The notes below the pieces were generated by a model. It was not told where the DNA came from. It saw only the letters and a program-made list of their open reading frames with translations, and did not search any database. A program made the position numbers and the translations under genes. A DNA stretch of 42,699 nucleotides from the IMG/VR virus record IMGVR_UViG_3300010371_000018, positions 1-42,699 of that record; one strand, written 5' to 3'. This document shows, one piece after another, positions 3,273 to 42,699 of the stretch (the first letter of the stretch is position 1; each line of letters opens with the position of its first letter). The stretch is from a virus.

Positions 3273-3590
3273 CTAAATAATACCCCCGTTTCCGTCTCCG
3301 TCTCCGTTTCCGTTTCCGTATCCGTATCCGTATCCGTTTCCGTTTCCGTATCCGTCTCCGTATCCGTATCCGTTTCCGTTTCCGTCTCCGTATCCGTTTC
3401 CGTCTCCGTCTCCGTTTCCGTTTCCGTATCCGTATCCGTATCCGTTTCCGTTTCCGTATCCGTATCCGTATCCGTTTCCGTTTCCGTCTCCGTATCCGTA
3501 TCCGTATCCGTATCCGTATCCGCGTTTATCAGACCCTACAGCCATTGGAGACACGAAATCAGCTGTGTTAGCATTTCGTGAATAACTCAT
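3273..3590 (-). CDS. Gly-X dipeptide repeat protein (X = Tyr, Asn or Asp)
   Basis: This 105-residue protein has a 23-residue head ending in GSDKR, then about 39 uninterrupted dipeptides Gly-Tyr, Gly-Asn or Gly-Asp, and a short GII tail. Every unit is the hexamer GGA-NAC with N = T, A or G; the glycine codon and the AC never vary. The open frame and its coupling to both neighbours (TAA-ATG junction upstream, TAG-ATG downstream) argue for translation. Low-complexity Gly/Tyr/Asn tracts can be flexible or phase-separating. Function unknown. Confidence 0.75.
   Translation of the reverse strand: MSYSRNANTADFVSPMAVGSDKRGYGYGYGYGYGDGNGNGYGYGYGNGNGYGYGYGNGNGDGDGNGYGDGNGNGYGYGDGYGNGNGYGYGYGNGNGDGDGNGGII
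3287..3522. repeat. Hexanucleotide tandem array, unit TCCGTN
   Basis: About 39 tandem hexamers read TCCGTA, TCCGTT or TCCGTC on the plus strand. Only the last base varies, and it is never G. Higher-order order is visible: a block of three Tyr units and two Asn units (30 bp) recurs several times, and a longer block ending in two Asp units and one Asn unit occurs twice. Confidence 0.97.
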
Positions 3591-4021: not shown

Positions 4022-4202
4022 CACATACAAGGTGGGTACCTGGTATTGGGTTGTTGTTCTCTCGTAAACCAAGGCAGTATTCATATGGTCAGAGGCTGAT
4101 ACATTACTGTAGTTCGCATGCCATATCCCGGCTATTAAGCACTACTTGCGTTAACCAACTAGCTCTTGCTACGCCGTCATACAGGTTTACTTGGATAAGA
4201 TA
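4022..4202 (-). other. Untranslated 3' segment, possibly structured
   Basis: No plausible gene on either strand. On the minus strand GTAAACC near the 5' side can pair with GGTTTAC about 125 bases later, enclosing further short helices (for example GTAGT/ACTAC), just before the terminator. A tRNA was sought and not found. It may be a 3' UTR or a small RNA. Confidence 0.35.
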
Positions 4203-4397
4203 TCACAATAATTTTTGTTGTCTATCTTTTGCATACTTCGCAATCTTTTGCTTCTGTAATTTACGAATTAAGCGAGCGGCATCTTCCACACTATATTTCT
4301 TGTAAAGTGTGGGGTTAATGACCGTCAGTTCACTACACAATCTGTCTATATAGGCCAGTTGCTTTTTAGAAGCTCGGTGATACTTTTCCACGTACAC
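4203..4397 (-). CDS. Small helical protein, KKQxxxIDxL type
   Basis: This 64-residue protein starts at GTG, overlapping the initiator gene by 32 bases. The pattern ASKKQLAYIDRLCSEL ... SVEDAARLIRKLQK resembles the plus-strand protein at 14908-15111 (ATEKQKGMLIDLGYV ... TKDEAEELITELL). The two share the small phage/bacterial motif in which ATxKQ and IDxL helices precede an acidic-aliphatic helix. Function unknown; its place after the initiator suggests a replication accessory. Confidence 0.7.
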   Translation of the reverse strand: MYVEKYHRASKKQLAYIDRLCSELTVINPTLYKKYSVEDAARLIRKLQKQKIAKYAKDRQQKLL

Positions 4398-5121
4398 TCA
4401 TTTTCTTGCCTAATTCGGAAGCATAGTTACTCACTGGACCATATTTCTCAGGGTGTAATAATTGGCCGGGGCTAATTTCAGACGGGGTTTTGGCTTCATC
4501 CCTTAAGGGGAAAACTCCCTGCCATCCTTGGACAACCGATTCTTCCAGGCACAGACGTTGTTTCTCTGTATTAGAAGGATACCAACGTTCGAGTTTGCCA
4601 ATGATGAGTTTCAGGCTACTAGGTGTTACCGGTTTTCGTAGCGCTTTACGTGCCTCGATAAACGCAGTGAGTTCTACTTTTAGTTCTGGATAATCACTCA
4701 CTAAGTCGCTTTGCGACTGATTTCTTTTTAAATGCTCTTTTTCTCTTTTCTTATTATGGGGAACGCCAGTTCCTTCGACGACGGAACTGTACTTCCTTCG
4801 CGAGGGAACGCCAGTTCCTTCGTTAACTGCACCAACGGCAGAAAATGCCACCGTAACTATTATCTCTAATCTGTTACGCTTACCTTCACCTTTGTAAATT
4901 CTGCCTACGTACCCCTGTTGCTCTAATCTATCTAGACTGATTCGTATATTACGTTCACTAAATCCTGTAAGTTCACTAAGCGTCGTATTACTAGCCACGC
5001 ATTTCATAAGTGCCAACTTGGTCATCCAATAAATGTATCCAAATAGTATTCGATCACTAGGTTGCAAAGAACTATCCGACAATAATTGGGTCGGTATCAT
5101 GATGAAATCTGGTTGTGTCAT
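4366..5121 (-). CDS. Replication initiator (winged-helix, lambda O-like organiser)
   Basis: This 251-residue protein starts at the ATG at 5121. Residues 1-85 form a winged helix typical of phage replication initiators (LSDSSLQPSDRILFGYIYW, then LSELTGFSERNIRISLDRL and a wing QQGYVGRIYKG). A linker with twin EGTGVP repeats follows. The C-terminal part (KLIIGKLERWYP, then ESVVQGWQGVFPL) is the region that in such proteins contacts the host helicase loader. The DNA for the linker holds the iteron cluster 4759-4822, as in lambda O. No helicase or polymerase was found, so the host replisome must be recruited. Confidence 0.82.
   Translation of the reverse strand: MTQPDFIMIPTQLLSDSSLQPSDRILFGYIYWMTKLALMKCVASNTTLSELTGFSERNIRISLDRLEQQGYVGRIYKGEGKRNRLEIIVTVAFSAVGAVNEGTGVPSRRKYSSVVEGTGVPHNKKREKEHLKRNQSQSDLVSDYPELKVELTAFIEARKALRKPVTPSSLKLIIGKLERWYPSNTEKQRLCLEESVVQGWQGVFPLRDEAKTPSEISPGQLLHPEKYGPVSNYASELGKKMSVRGKVSPSF
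4711..4822. other. Putative replication origin: three iterons plus AT-rich tract
   Basis: Two identical 19-mers GGGAACGCCAGTTCCTTCG lie at 4759-4777 and 4804-4822, with a degenerate copy at 4782-4800, giving periods of 23 and 22 bases. Each contains an inverted GGAAC/GTTCC core. Next to them, 4711-4755 is an A/T and pyrimidine-rich stretch suitable for melting, and a small hairpin (AGTCGC/GCGACT) lies at 4694-4708. Iterons inside the initiator gene plus an AT-rich flank is the lambda-ori design. Confidence 0.65.
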
Positions 5122-5128
5122 TAGAAAC

Positions 5129-5157
5129 AAAATCCCCTCTGTTGCCAGAAGGGTTTT
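5129..5157 (-). promoter_or_regulatory. 5' leader hairpin of the initiator mRNA
   Basis: On the minus strand AAAACCCTTCT pairs imperfectly with AGAGGGGATTTT, a stem with one bulge and one mismatch, followed by a T-rich run, only 8 bases before the start codon. The 3' arm contains GAGGGG, the nearest ribosome-binding-like sequence, so the hairpin may act as attenuator or translational switch. Confidence 0.5.
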
Positions 5158-5177
5158 GCCGAGTTGCTATCAAATAC

Positions 5178-5206
5178 ATAGTATCACGGTCTATTTCTCT
5201 TGGCAA
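5178..5206 (-). promoter_or_regulatory. Initiator promoter, TTGCCA-17-TACTAT
   Basis: The minus-strand -35 box TTGCCA is at 5201-5206 and the -10 box TACTAT at 5178-5183, with a 17-base spacer. A palindrome (5205-5221) begins at its -35 edge. Confidence 0.7.
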
Positions 5207-5251
5207 CACTTAATTAGTGTTTTGACAAGAGTAGTGATAGCAACTCTTGTC
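5205..5251. promoter_or_regulatory. Two adjacent inverted repeats, probable operator region
   Basis: AACACT-5-AGTGTT (5205-5221) touches the -35 of the leftward promoter. Then GACAAGAGT-10-ACTCTTGTC (5224-5251), with perfect 9-bp arms, follows in the divergent region. No T-run follows either, so repressor binding is more likely than termination. Confidence 0.5.
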
Positions 5252-5368
5252 TGGCTGCATTATACCATAGTGATAAAATACTGCTTATGGACTACAAAAA
5301 AAGAACAAACCACCACCTAAAACTGATCTGTCTACAGATAGAACTAACAGATATTGGGTTTTGGAGTG

Positions 5369-9642: not shown

Positions 9643-9803
9643 ATAGTTTGGACGAGATTCTGGACTATCTACAACTAGGACCAGACGATGTACATTTACA
9701 AGAACAATGGAACGTCAACGATAAGTTAGTCGAAGAAGAGCAAAGGGATAACTTACTTAGGCAAATGATTAAAGATAAAGTTGCAGAGCTGTACAATCTA
9801 TGA
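9639..9803 (+). CDS. Hypothetical 54-residue acidic helical protein
   Basis: It starts MNSLDEILDYLQLGPDDVHL and has two helices rich in Glu, Asp and Leu. Both ends overlap neighbouring genes by 4 bases. Unrecognised. Confidence 0.6.
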   Translation: MNSLDEILDYLQLGPDDVHLQEQWNVNDKLVEEEQRDNLLRQMIKDKVAELYNL

Positions 9804-9916
9804 AACATTTCACCATCCCACAGCGTAAACAGCTAAACCAACTAGCCAGCCAAATGAGAAAAGGAGCTATTAGTTTTCAGGAGTATCACAACGAACTGAC
9901 TAAGTACTACAATTAA
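9800..9916 (+). CDS. 38-residue SHOCT-like helical peptide
   Basis: It reads PQRKQLNQLASQMRKGAISF and then EYHNELTKYY. The order helix, G-x-I-S/T-x-x-E-Y, helix resembles the short C-terminal oligomerisation (SHOCT) motif. It is the last gene before a 120-base gap (9917-10036) without a gene. Confidence 0.55.
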   Translation: MKHFTIPQRKQLNQLASQMRKGAISFQEYHNELTKYYN

Positions 9917-10036
9917 ATAAGCTGGGTCGGGGTAAAATGTAGTAGCTAAATAACTCTGTGAATCTACTACCCAGCACTCCGTGAACATTTACAACCAAAC
10001 AACAGTAATGTCCTCTAAGGGGCGGAAGGGAGAGAT

Positions 10037-10372
10037 ATGAGTAAGGAACTACCGGATCACGTTACCGAACAAAGAGAACTATATTTTGTGTTTCCGGAAG
10101 ACAATCAACTTTTGGCTCAGGAAATATACAGCAATATTTCTTTTCTAGAAGATGTACTTGGCTCTAAATGGGTTAACAATGAAATTGATTCTTGGAGTAA
10201 GACCTTTATGAACAACGGTGAGTATTGGCACAAGGCTGACATTGCTCTATCGATGAACAAAAGGATGCCGATATACATGATTGCGGCATATAAGAAAATC
10301 CTTAACGATTTTAAGACAGAACTAGCCCATCCCCAATTAACCAAAGAAAGGAAAGAGATATGGGTAATATAA
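10037..10372 (+). CDS. Hypothetical 111-residue protein
   Basis: GGAAGGGAGAG gives a strong ribosome-binding site. The product is helical, starting with a polar ELPDHVTEQRELYFVF strand region and ending KRMPIYMIAAYKKILNDFK. No membrane segment or catalytic motif is clear. It overlaps the next gene by 13 bases. Confidence 0.7.
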   Translation: MSKELPDHVTEQRELYFVFPEDNQLLAQEIYSNISFLEDVLGSKWVNNEIDSWSKTFMNNGEYWHKADIALSMNKRMPIYMIAAYKKILNDFKTELAHPQLTKERKEIWVI

Positions 10373-10521
10373 AGGGTCCACTTTGTTCATGCAAGCACAA
10401 CGCGGCAATGCATAACTTTGGTCACTCAGCTTGTGCCTACTGTCCCTGCAACGAGTTCGATGGTGAAAAAGAGGACCCATCTGGCTTTATAAATATGTTG
10501 TTACATAGTAACGATGTATAG
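10360..10521 (+). CDS. Small Cys-rich, zinc-knuckle-like protein
   Basis: This 53-residue protein has CSCKHN (CxC), His residues in the middle, then CAYCPC (CxxCxC), enough ligands for one or two zinc ions. It is followed by the large non-coding region. Unrecognised. Confidence 0.65.
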   Translation: MGNIKGPLCSCKHNAAMHNFGHSACAYCPCNEFDGEKEDPSGFINMLLHSNDV

Positions 10522-10581
10522 CACCTTAAAATCCAACCCCCACTAGTTGCCCTGTATTGGGTGGTGAGACAGTAATAATGG

Positions 10582-11255
10582 CGTACGGAAACATGAATGG
10601 TCATACATTCGACTGAAAAAGCCGCGTACCTTCTGAAAATCCAAGCGGACGTGGAGCCACAAAGCTATGAAGCGCTGAAGGAAAACTCCATTGCTCGCCG
10701 CCCATTCAAAGGTCAATTAGTGGAAATTGTGAGCAGTAACGGGGGGTAGGTTTCGCAAACCTGGTTGCCCTGACTTATGGACGCGATCTTAAGCACAGGG
10801 ATATGGTCACCCGGCCCCATTAGTGCTCACAATAGTTCTTTGATAATTTGATTAGACCCAAGTGGCTGCACAGGCTCTCGTATGACGAGCGTTGCAACGA
10901 TCATAAGGAAAGCAAGTAACTACTGCTAGATAACAAGCGCCCCTGGTAGGTAGCATTTAGTAGCAAATCTCTTGATATCCTGTGCAGTCAGCTAGTAGTA
11001 AGGGTAAGCGCACACCTAAGACTGTGAAAACGTAGCAGGAAATTTGTGTGATAGGAGAATCGGGACCAACTGACCCACCCCGACTACTAGCACCTAATAG
11101 ATCAGCTAGAGCCGTGTGCGCTGAAATAATGCGATACGCTATGACGCGGCTTTAGCCTATTAGGGTTCCACTTCCGGCGGTAAGCGTCGAGTGATTAACG
11201 AGAACGGGTTACATCCCTCGGTGTGTAAATCCCGTCTTGCCGTCGGAGGTGGCTA
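10582..11255 (+). ncRNA. Large ornate structured RNA of unidentified class
   Basis: About 675 bases without a plausible gene. Long-range complementarities are perfect or use G-U pairs: 10726-10735/10824-10833 (ATTGTGAGCA/TGCTCACAAT), 10864-10874/10979-10989, 10991-10999/11083-11091, 11093-11100/11157-11164 continued by 11105-11114/11147-11156, and 11168-11184/11236-11252 (17 bp with three G-U). Local hairpins include 10595-10610, 10748-10762 and 10877-10889. 11007-11014 pairs with 11115-11122 inside another helix's loop, a pseudoknot. A weak promoter (TTGCCC-18-AGTAAT) lies at 10548-10577. Size and phage setting recall GOLLD or ROOL RNAs, but the class cannot be assigned by eye. Confidence 0.75.
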
Positions 11256-11288
11256 ATCAAATGAGTACTATATAAAACTAAGGGAAAT

Positions 11289-11317
11289 CTATACAGACAT
11301 CAGCTAGTACTGTATAG
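11289..11317 (+). promoter_or_regulatory. Hairpin before gene 11338
   Basis: CTATACAG/CTGTATAG is a perfect 8-bp stem with a 13-base loop that repeats TCAGCTAGTA, a sequence also present in the large RNA at 10988-10997. The loop could compete for the same partner (11083-11091). The stem ends 10 bases before the AGGAG site. Confidence 0.5.
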
Positions 11318-11337
11318 AGCCTAAATAGGAGATGGAT

Positions 11338-11538
11338 ATGAGCAAACTAGATGAAATACTTACCTTTGACAGTCTTGCAGACTTGCCCCACGAAACTAGG
11401 GCACTGGCTAAACAAAAAGTGCAGGACCTATTCCTAGAGTTAATGAAAGACTGCGAAGACTACATCCTCGGTGACTCAGAAGAAGAAACCAGGGTATTCA
11501 ATGAAGAACTATACCGTAAAAGAATTAAATCTCTATAA
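11338..11538 (+). CDS. Hypothetical 66-residue acidic protein
   Basis: The start is at the second ATG (11338), because AGGAG is 7 bases before it and would touch the first ATG. The product is helical and acidic (DLFLELMKDCEDYILGDSEEE). Unrecognised. Confidence 0.65.
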   Translation: MSKLDEILTFDSLADLPHETRALAKQKVQDLFLELMKDCEDYILGDSEEETRVFNEELYRKRIKSL

Positions 11539-11543
11539 CTGCT

Positions 11544-11678
11544 ATGGAATACTTATTAGTGCCACATACTGCAAAATACTGGGGAGATGTATGTCTAAAC
11601 TGCGGGTACTACAGAAGTGCACACATTACAGATGATCACCTGAAGAAACTGTATAAATTAGGAAAGGTTGGAGAATAA
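11544..11678 (+). CDS. Small CxxCG protein
   Basis: This 44-residue protein contains VCLNCGYYRSAHIT, one Cys pair plus a His, then a basic helix. A zinc-ribbon half-site is possible. It is packed between neighbours with gaps of a few bases. Confidence 0.55.
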   Translation: MEYLLVPHTAKYWGDVCLNCGYYRSAHITDDHLKKLYKLGKVGE

Positions 11679-11679
11679 C

Positions 11680-11844
11680 ATGGACGATTTTCAAGATAGA
11701 GGCGAAGCCTACCGGCAAGAACTAGGTATAGATGGAACTGCTGCTGATGCACAGGACCAGAAGCACCCTTACAAGGCAGATGGTGATAATGAGTGGTGTC
11801 TAGCCTGCGGATTGGATGAAGGAGCTAGGTGTCATGTCAGTTGA
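11680..11844 (+). CDS. Small zinc-binding-like protein
   Basis: The 54-residue product ends EWCLACGLDEGARCHVS: CxxC followed by C-H gives four possible zinc ligands. The front half is polar and helical. It overlaps the next gene's start by 11 bases. Confidence 0.6.
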   Translation: MDDFQDRGEAYRQELGIDGTAADAQDQKHPYKADGDNEWCLACGLDEGARCHVS

Positions 11845-12202
11845 TAGCGAACTACTGCGTAAGCAACTAGAAGACCTTGGACTTTACAATGTTCTAATCC
11901 ATCTGCACGAACACGAGCACACGGCGTACTGTTTCTGTACCACAGAGATATCTGGACCATACCGCAAATTGTTGGATATTATAGCCCAGTCAACCCAACT
12001 GGCTGGTTTAGAGGCACGCATTGATGAGCTGAAAAATCTTACCTTTAACAATACGAGAACATATAAACAAACAGTGACCGACAGAGAGGGCAATATGTAC
12101 ATTGATGAAAGTCACTCATATATATCAGTGTATGAAACTCGAGAGCGTCTAACCGAGCTTCAGCAAGCCCTAGACACCCTAAAGAAGGAATCGGAGTTAT
12201 GA
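11834..12202 (+). CDS. Hypothetical 122-residue helical protein
   Basis: The start at 11834 is preferred because AAGGAG is about 9 bases upstream. It has HLHEHEHTAYCFC near residue 26, a His/Cys-rich patch that could bind metal, then two long helices (LLDIIAQSTQLAGLEARIDELK and a C-terminal ETRERLTELQQALDTLKK). Unrecognised. Confidence 0.65.
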   Translation: MSVDSELLRKQLEDLGLYNVLIHLHEHEHTAYCFCTTEISGPYRKLLDIIAQSTQLAGLEARIDELKNLTFNNTRTYKQTVTDREGNMYIDESHSYISVYETRERLTELQQALDTLKKESEL

Positions 12203-40822: not shown

Positions 40823-42699
40823 TTATTGTATCACAGATGGCATAGCTGGTTCAGATGGGGCAGGAGCCGCCTGGGGCGGAGGTGCCATAACGCTACTCGG
40901 GGTTGGTGGTTGCATTGGAGGCATTCCCATTGGAGGCTGACCTGGTAATGGCATACCTGGCTGTCCTGGTGAAACTGAAGGCATCATACCGGGAGCAGGC
41001 ATTCCAGGCATCTGCGGTGGCATTGGAAACGGCAATGGAGGTAACGGCATTTGTGGGTTAAGATTCTGTCCAGTCGGATCTTGCTGTCCTGCTTGGTCCA
41101 ACTGCTCGCGTGTCTCTAAGCTGTCTAGACATTTAACTACGTAGTCAATAAATGCTTTCTGCTTGGATAATGGTGCATTTATGAATTCATCATTAATCAT
41201 CAGCTTGCGTAAACTTAGGATGTACTCCTTAGTTGGGTTCTCTTTCTGCTCAACCTTCTTGCCGTCCATGATATCTTGGAATATGACATATGCTTCGGAA
41301 TCATCCACCACACCTAATGCATCACGGGCGAGTGCCATTGGGTCTTGCTGTTGCTTGGCCCAATTGTCGTAAAGCTGCTGCGGGTTGTCCAACTGTAGCA
41401 GGCGGTAAGCATCTAATAGGCTGACTGCTTTTTGCTTCAGGAGTGCCAAGATAATAGCTTCAACACGGGCACGGTCGGGGTTAGCAGGACGGCCAGCCTT
41501 CACGCGTATGCCCTCTTCAATGAGCCCACGCTTAAGTGTAATGTAGTCAAACTCACCATCACCACTATCATGGACAAAACTATGTTCTTCGGTGTACCAC
41601 ACAATGAACATTTGCACCAGATATTGGTAGATCTCTGTTAGCATACGGCTAATTGCCCGTACCATTTGATCTTGAATACCAGCAGACTGGTTCTTCTTTA
41701 CCATGACTTCGCCAAGAGTTGGATCGCCATCATCCGCTTGTGAACCAGTAAAATCAGTTGGCGCACCAAGTAGGTTACCAATCTGTATACGTGCATCCAT
41801 TTTAAGGTTGGCAACAAACTCAGGTAATTGTTGTGCTTCTATCTGGTGTACTAATTCCTCTACTGATTGTCCACTAGTCTTAATCACTAGTTTCTGGTTT
41901 GGGTCACCAGTTAAGTTCTGAGCATCATCTTTGGTTAGACCACTATCTGTTGATATAACAAGTAATCCATTAGCTTTGGCAGCTACTTCAAGTATCTGTC
42001 TACCAACTTGATTCAACACTTTCTGCTGCTCAATTGCTTGTTCTACTGGAGTTGTGTCATCTATTAAATGGTCGCCCAGATTAACTAAGTTACCAAAGAT
42101 AAACGGCTTCTTAGGGTACTTGAGCAAGTTCTGCTTTTCGTTGGCATACATCCAGTTCGGGTTACGATCTTTTTCTAGTACCAAGTCGTCAAAGTAAACT
42201 ACAAAGCCTTCTATTGGCTTATTATTCTTATAATGAGTAACCCAAACCTCACGTACAGCTAATTCCTGAGTCATTTGTTTCGCAGTTCGTCGCTGTATAC
42301 CAAGATGTTTCATGACTTCTTGCTTCTTATCGGGCCAAGTACTAATAATTTCTTCCACTGACATCTTGCGTACATGACAAACAAACCCTGGATTACCACC
42401 TAATGGTGTATTTTTATCAAGGATTATGTGTTCAGGATTAATTGATTCAAGAATAATGTCACCATTTGTACCGAAGTTTGGATTGTATCTAAACTTTCCA
42501 ACAGCTAGTCTTTTTAGTCTAATGTTACGTACGAATGACTCTATAAGACGTTCTAGATCTACCACATCCTCGCCATAAGCTTTAATAGCTTTCTCAAGGT
42601 CACCAGCGAATAGTTTGCTTCTATCCGTTTTACTAGCAGGAATAACAACAGGACCGGCTATTTGTGCGGTGACATAACTTATAACTGCCTGTTCGCCCA
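40823..42699 (-). CDS. Portal protein, main part
   Basis: Reading continues from residue 140 at the joined ends (42576) to the stop at 40823. It includes VRKMSVEEIISTWPDKKQEV, the helical core NQVGRQILEVAAKANGLLVI, and NLLGAPTDFTGSQADDGDPT, with the crown region QIGNLLGAPTDF. The C-terminal 90 residues are strongly Pro/Met/Gly-rich (PPLPFPMPPQMPGMPAPGMM), an unusual disordered tail. The full product has 723 residues; see 1-418. Bases 42577-42699 repeat 1-123. Confidence 0.88.
   Translation of the reverse strand, partial: GEQAVISYVTAQIAGPVVIPASKTDRSKLFAGDLEKAIKAYGEDVVDLERLIESFVRNIRLKRLAVGKFRYNPNFGTNGDIILESINPEHIILDKNTPLGGNPGFVCHVRKMSVEEIISTWPDKKQEVMKHLGIQRRTAKQMTQELAVREVWVTHYKNNKPIEGFVVYFDDLVLEKDRNPNWMYANEKQNLLKYPKKPFIFGNLVNLGDHLIDDTTPVEQAIEQQKVLNQVGRQILEVAAKANGLLVISTDSGLTKDDAQNLTGDPNQKLVIKTSGQSVEELVHQIEAQQLPEFVANLKMDARIQIGNLLGAPTDFTGSQADDGDPTLGEVMVKKNQSAGIQDQMVRAISRMLTEIYQYLVQMFIVWYTEEHSFVHDSGDGEFDYITLKRGLIEEGIRVKAGRPANPDRARVEAIILALLKQKAVSLLDAYRLLQLDNPQQLYDNWAKQQQDPMALARDALGVVDDSEAYVIFQDIMDGKKVEQKENPTKEYILSLRKLMINDEFINAPLSKQKAFIDYVVKCLDSLETREQLDQAGQQDPTGQNLNPQMPLPPLPFPMPPQMPGMPAPGMMPSVSPGQPGMPLPGQPPMGMPPMQPPTPSSVMAPPPQAAPAPSEPAMPSVIQ
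42577..42699. repeat. Terminal direct repeat, copy 2
   Basis: Exact copy of bases 1-123; the unique genome length is therefore 42,576 bp if circularised. Confidence 0.95.

Follow-up and report, generated by a model that had tools for sequence, protein, structure and literature searches.

Does a gap of about 800 bases in the early region of a phage genome, lying among small overlapping genes, make an RNA, and if so, of what kind? The gap belongs to the virus contig IMGVR_UViG_3300010371_000018, whose entire 42,699 bases we analysed and hereafter call the window. An earlier note on this DNA had suggested that it encodes a large, structured RNA, one that could not be assigned to a class. The first and last 123 bases of the window are identical, forming an exact direct terminal repeat (1–123 and 42577–42699), which indicates a complete, circularly assembled phage genome. 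Encoded in it are a GroEL-like protein, an SU10-type adaptor and a weakly SU10-like portal. Because its tail protein matches that of TM7 phage DolZOral124_53_65 (32% identity over 98% of the length), and this phage also has a chaperonin gene, Saccharibacteria or related Patescibacteria are the likely hosts. Elsewhere in the genome, a minus-strand open reading frame (ORF; 3273–3590) contains 39.5 copies of a 6-base repeat (3286–3522) and specifies a Gly-rich (GYG/GNG) protein.

On the plus strand, the ORF map has a gap from 10522 to 11331, between a small gene of 53 amino acids (10360–10521) and one of 68 amino acids (11332–11538) that has no known domain. Within 10522–11335 we counted seven perfect Watson-Crick helices of at least 9 bp, against 0.93 ± 0.96 expected and a maximum of 3 in 60 dinucleotide shuffles, and one helix of 17 pairs is longer than the longest found in any shuffle (16). 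The minimum free energy (MFE) of 10525–11335 corresponds to a z of −6.8 on the plus strand and −3.1 on the minus strand, with none of 60 shuffles as low on the plus strand. Both ends of the region contribute: the 3’ part (10840–11265) has a z of −5.9, and the 5’ part (10525–10725) one of −4.5 on the plus strand and −0.5 on the minus strand, while flanking coding stretches range from −0.95 to +1.0 on the plus strand and from −2.2 to +2.3 on the minus strand. In 300-nt sliding windows the region is unexceptional within the genome and other places score lower; it is long-range structure that provides the evidence. The strongest 300-nt signal, at 5000–5299 on the minus strand (z −5.0), overlaps ORFs on both strands. 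Judged by these predicted folds, it is almost certain that the gap gives rise to a large folded RNA, which we place at 10524–11265 on the plus strand (about 740 nt), with approximate ends taken from the fold. A search for a promoter or terminator of this RNA found none.

The earlier claim that the gap holds no credible ORF was nearly right. One plus-strand ORF of 50 codons (10597–10749) lies inside the 5’ part; its codon usage is neutral (score 0.01 per codon), it has no database match and no relatives, and it is probably either a chance frame or a very small separate gene. All remaining ORFs of at least 25 codons in the gap have codon scores below 0, and no conserved protein frame was found across the region. 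Since the 5’ half has a z of −4.5 on the plus strand only, it is less likely to be a gene.

The predicted RNA consists of three domains on the plus strand. The 5’ domain (10540–10723) is built on stems 10540–10549/10714–10723 and 10558–10568/10694–10704 of the MFE fold, and the second (10726–10833) on a 19-nt stem, 10726–10744/10815–10833, that is 89% complementary and includes ten Watson-Crick pairs at 10726–10735/10824–10833. The 3’ domain (10846–11262) is closed by helix P1 (10846–10855/11253–11262, UUUGA.../...UCAAA), with ten perfect pairs and a U-rich composition that recurs in the relatives described below. Inside P1 lies first the P2 domain (10864–10989), whose closing helix 10864–10874/10979–10989 has 11 pairs, one of them G-U, and which is an insertion specific to the window. 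Then comes the core: helix H (10991–10999/11083–11091, nine pairs) encloses the motif GCGC-ACACC-UAAG-ACUGU-GAAAACGUAG at 11008–11035. It is followed by hairpin Pb (11093–11114/11147–11164, 18 pairs with a 4-nt bulge) and hairpin Pc (11168–11184/11236–11252, 17 pairs). The loop-side end of Pb bears one strand of a predicted pseudoknot, AGCGCACAC/GUGUGCGCU, which the earlier note had drawn at 11007–11014/11115–11122 and which extends to nine pairs at 11007–11015/11114–11122. Every helix listed in that note was recovered at its position; the note had missed P1 and the 5’ stem, and had set the start at 10582, while structure begins near 10540.

Downstream of the RNA, a further hairpin at 11288–11318 (UCUAUACAG/CUGUAUAGA) is not an intrinsic terminator, as it has no T-run. 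The word UCAGCUAGUA, which is found in the 5’ strand of H (10988–10997), occurs again in the loop of this hairpin (11300–11309), and a 9-nt copy lies in Pb (11101–11109). The hairpin loop may compete for the 3’ strand of H, or the repeat may be due to chance.

A blastn search with the window RNA against 50,697 phage records and related contigs gave no DNA match. Using window proteins (GroEL and the tail protein), we recovered about 22 related IMG/VR records and scanned their ORF-free gaps. This revealed a very strongly folded, ORF-poor region in relative G004 (contig L054, 9915–10900), with a z of −15.6 (20 shuffles), or −9.9 on a second cut, and an RNA of about 790 nt. A blastn match (E 1e-9) links the G004 RNA to a compact counterpart of about 260 nt in G003 (L052, minus strand, ~12745–12490), and a third, of about 485 nt, is present in G008 (L062, minus strand, ~8545–8060). 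On their own, the G003 and G008 RNAs have weak fold scores (z −2.1 and −2.2). They have in common a 5’ element, GGCUAGnCGUGAAG...UAAAUCGUUG, and a 3’ tail, AUGCGAACAUAACAG, that are nearly letter-identical. What lies 5’ of the core differs: G003 has a minimal version, G004 a multi-helix domain, and G008 a pair of tRNA-Met(CAT) genes (L062 8295–8390 and 8397–8474, minus strand), one with a long variable arm, set between the 5’ element and the core. In all three relatives the RNA precedes the same gene of 80–85 amino acids, upstream of the terminase genes. The window copy does not share this neighbourhood and sits at 10.5 kb on the early strand.

With the window, these make four known members. 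Pattern scans of viral contigs for the 5’ element, the 3’ tail and the core returned the known members and chance hits in genes, and a core-pattern scan of cellular genome contigs gave chance hits in genes and no new member. Nor did a further member emerge when the neighbouring 80-aa protein was used as the query, or when cellular genomes were searched for the tail protein. Sliding 300-nt fold scans discriminated weakly among the relatives, and most of the gaps inspected in G005 and G011–G023 as candidate homologues fold no better than chance. Those of G010, G012, G021 and G022 hold a second RNA, and that of TM7 phage MG269973 contains a tRNA-like element and not a window-type core; both are described at the end.

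We aligned the four RNAs by structure and by eye, and found a common plan for the 3’ domain; a MAFFT alignment misplaces the core motif and does not recover this plan. P1 closes it; H encloses an internal strand with GCGC (GGGC in G004), then UAAG, then GAAAACGUAG or CGAACGUAG; and Pb follows directly after H in all members, its loop predicted to pair back to the GCGC region. The full motif is common to the window and G008, and it recurs as UAAG...CGAACGUAG in G003 and G004. G004 also has a hairpin at the place of Pc.

Helix H carries the comparative evidence. Its arms are GCUAGUAGU/ACUACUAGC in the window, AGCCGUCAAG/CUUGGCGGUU in G003, CCAGGAGUG/UGCUCCUGG in G004 and AGUCAGUAUCAGUG/UGCUGGUACUGAUU in G008; the sequence is different in each RNA and pairs in all four. 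Over the four sequences of this hand-made alignment, each arm paired with its own partner sums to −57.0 kcal/mol, against −37.6 for the next best re-assignment of arms. For Pb, too, the pairing of own arms ranked first. As far as four sequences allow, then, the covariation that the earlier note had asked for is present. The P1 arms are AUUUGAUUAG/CUAAUCAAAU in the window, ACUUUGAGCAA/UUGCUUAAAGU in G004, UUUAAGUA/UGCUUAAA in G003 and UUUGAACA/UGCUUAAA in G008. The putative pseudoknot, whose arms are partly alike between members, has counterparts at the same place in the relatives; it is strong in the window and G003, moderate in G004 and weak in G008. P1 and the pseudoknot add consistency rather than covariation, because their arms are interchangeable between some members or, in G008, too weak.

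To describe the class we used a descriptor made up of AACGTAG, a UAAG 4–14 nt upstream, and an enclosing helix with a score of at least 20. In 893 kb of related sequence, 94 AACGTAG sites include 5 with UAAG, and the 4 that pass fully are the RNAs of G003, G004, G008 and the window. The same descriptor passed 8 times in 800 shuffles of the window, or 0.01 per genome, a figure that is somewhat flattering because the descriptor was written after all four members had been seen. As an independent check, all viral contigs were scanned for GCGC..UAAG..GAAAACGUAG; of the 15 stretches found besides the window, only the one in G008 is enclosed by a helix that equals the window's in strength.

Against known families, the window gave no match at gathering level to any of the 4227 families of Rfam 15, and cmscan of 9800–12000 at E ≤ 5 gave no convincing match. 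Permissive searches with the G004 and G008 RNAs (E ≤ 5–10) returned only tRNAs and chance hits, and among the RNAs of the three relatives the sole Rfam matches are the tRNA genes within that of G008. In 23 records, the four members among them, the GOLLD model (RF02032) found nothing close to the RNA at E ≤ 10, in a search run without a positive control; its only match in the window, 5 bits against a gathering threshold of 150 bits, lies away from the RNA. The ROOL model (RF03087, gathering threshold 99.1 bits) is absent from the four members and seven relatives, in a search that scored 128–265 bits in three control phages. The group I intron model (RF00028) has no match in any of the four members, and the window RNA is intergenic, between intact genes. 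The fold statistics and the family searches both support the earlier note, which had likened the RNA to GOLLD and ROOL in size and setting but assigned it to no class; membership in GOLLD or ROOL is not supported.

Among phage RNAs, GOLLD and ROOL are abundant and build cages made of RNA alone; to our knowledge, no function is known for either. GOLLD has a conserved 3’ domain of about 420 nt and a variable 5’ part that sometimes carries tRNAs, and it assembles into a homo-oligomeric cage of 14 copies (PMC12286853); a pseudo-tRNA has also been described within it (PMC6582537). The window-type RNAs resemble it as large phage or prophage RNAs with a conserved 3’ region and a variable 5’ region that, as in G008, sometimes holds tRNAs. 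The likeness is one of layout only, and the smallest window-type member is about 260 nt. With ROOL they share large size, pseudoknots and a phage origin, but not a match to its covariance model. A further parallel is the lytic phage ICP1, in which an ORF-less gap of about 1 kb gives rise to an abundant, unassigned RNA of about 800 nt, comparable in length to GOLLD and ROOL (PMC7567579). Phage and host differ from those of the window, and GOLLD and ROOL searches of ICP1 were both negative. On sequence grounds, we judge the window RNA to be new and narrowly distributed, a large phage RNA that is GOLLD-like in layout and outside the catalogued families.

Our preferred reading, to which we give a probability of roughly 0.6, is that the locus encodes a large, structured noncoding RNA, about 740 nt long, which stands alone, acts in trans and has an architectural role, the last by analogy with GOLLD. 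The place of the RNA and the gene downstream of it differ among members, which argues for action in trans, and the layout, being that described for GOLLD, favours an architectural RNA. The best rival is a long structured 5’ leader acting in cis on the translation or transcription of the next gene, because three of the four copies precede the same gene, part of a small-gene cassette. The 3’ tail CGAACAUA touches the start codon of this 80–85 aa gene in G004, and in the window a hairpin immediately precedes the ribosome-binding site of the 68-aa gene. However, in the window the homologue of the 80-aa gene lies on the opposite strand at 2.7–3.0 kb and has no relation to the gene at 11332, and in G008 another gene intervenes. 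The RNA can also hold tRNA genes, and a leader of 260–800 nt would be large; we consider this reading unlikely. Less likely again is a divergent GOLLD too remote for the Rfam model to detect. The conservation at the 3’ end, the variable 5’ part, the occasional tRNAs and the phage setting all correspond (PMC12286853), but RF02032 matched nothing near the RNA in the 23 records at E ≤ 10, nor in cmscan at E ≤ 5–10.

Three other explanations seem to us very improbable. The position of the RNA upstream of the terminase and portal genes of three relatives, in the same direction, recalls the phi29 pRNA and a part in the packaging motor. The window copy, however, is separated from the terminase by 8 kb and encoded on the opposite strand, and the terminases differ among members (20–23% identity) while the RNA core is kept. 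The phi29 pRNA, moreover, is much smaller than the window RNA and has a different architecture. A self-splicing intron or other ribozyme, or a derivative of one, would suit a phage RNA that is large and pseudoknotted and that in one copy contains tRNAs, and the permuted tRNA gene of another relative hints that these phages process RNA in unusual ways; against it, none of the four members matches a group I intron, cmscan gave no intron, and the RNA lies between intact genes rather than within one. Finally, the gap could hold leftover or protein-coding DNA that folds by chance, as might be argued from a 50-codon ORF with passable codon usage, the small number of homologues (four in all) and the similar z reached by other parts of the window in 300-nt scans. 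The strand-biased z of −6.8, the helix excess and a core common to three relatives through a covarying helix speak against chance.

For the trans-acting architectural RNA, we envisage that it would be transcribed with the operon and then trimmed out, that the pseudoknotted 3’ domain would be its functional core, and that the 5’ part would be a variable periphery or cargo region. The relatives show everything 5’ of the shared 3’ domain to be, by comparison of their sequences, apparently expendable or replaceable, and the range of member sizes (about 260, 485, 740 and 790 nt) suggests selection on a pseudoknotted core of about 150 nt. The role would most likely be that of an architectural RNA in lytic growth, either self-assembling or holding an RNA or ribosomal partner; self-assembly or oligomerisation is proposed purely by analogy. 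A bolder version, in which the RNAs form a new large ornate class that is restricted to phages infecting Saccharibacteria and their kin and arose independently of GOLLD and ROOL, assembling into a particle and carrying tRNAs in some variable parts, strikes us as doubtful. A further unrelated class with GOLLD-like layout, ranging from about 260 to 800 nt among close relatives and containing tRNAs in one of them, would offer a natural deletion series from which to define a minimal functional core. It would also add a noncoding RNA to the phages of Patescibacteria, on whose RNAs we found almost no published work in the literature searched.

The related phages contain other RNAs of note. A second conserved RNA occurs in distant relatives, in G021 (L086 9215–9460, plus strand), G010 (L064 5725–5492, minus), G022 (L088 12698–12453, minus) and G012 (L068 2363–2492, plus), where a tRNA-Thr lies downstream. 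Its copies are 65–70% identical, with E values down to 7e-24, and keep a CUUUUAC/GUAAAAG closing helix, seven pairs with two-sided changes and a shared ACGUC word; it has no Rfam match. In G014 (L071), a tRNA-Tyr(GTA) gene is circularly permuted (4106–4143 and 4223–4259): the 3’ half, which includes CCA, is encoded ahead of the 5’ half, the break falls in the anticodon loop, and a normal tRNA-Gly(GCC) occupies the interval (4146–4222). A group I intron search of L071 was negative, and the two tRNA-Tyr halves, joined in tRNA order, make a perfect tRNA in ARAGORN. In TM7 phage MG269973 (L172), an unannotated gap is followed by an equally unannotated tRNA-like element (8020–7955, minus strand) with a CCA end and without a D arm, which resembles the tRNA-like domain of tmRNA without the message part (34.9 bits, E 1.8e-12, below gathering).
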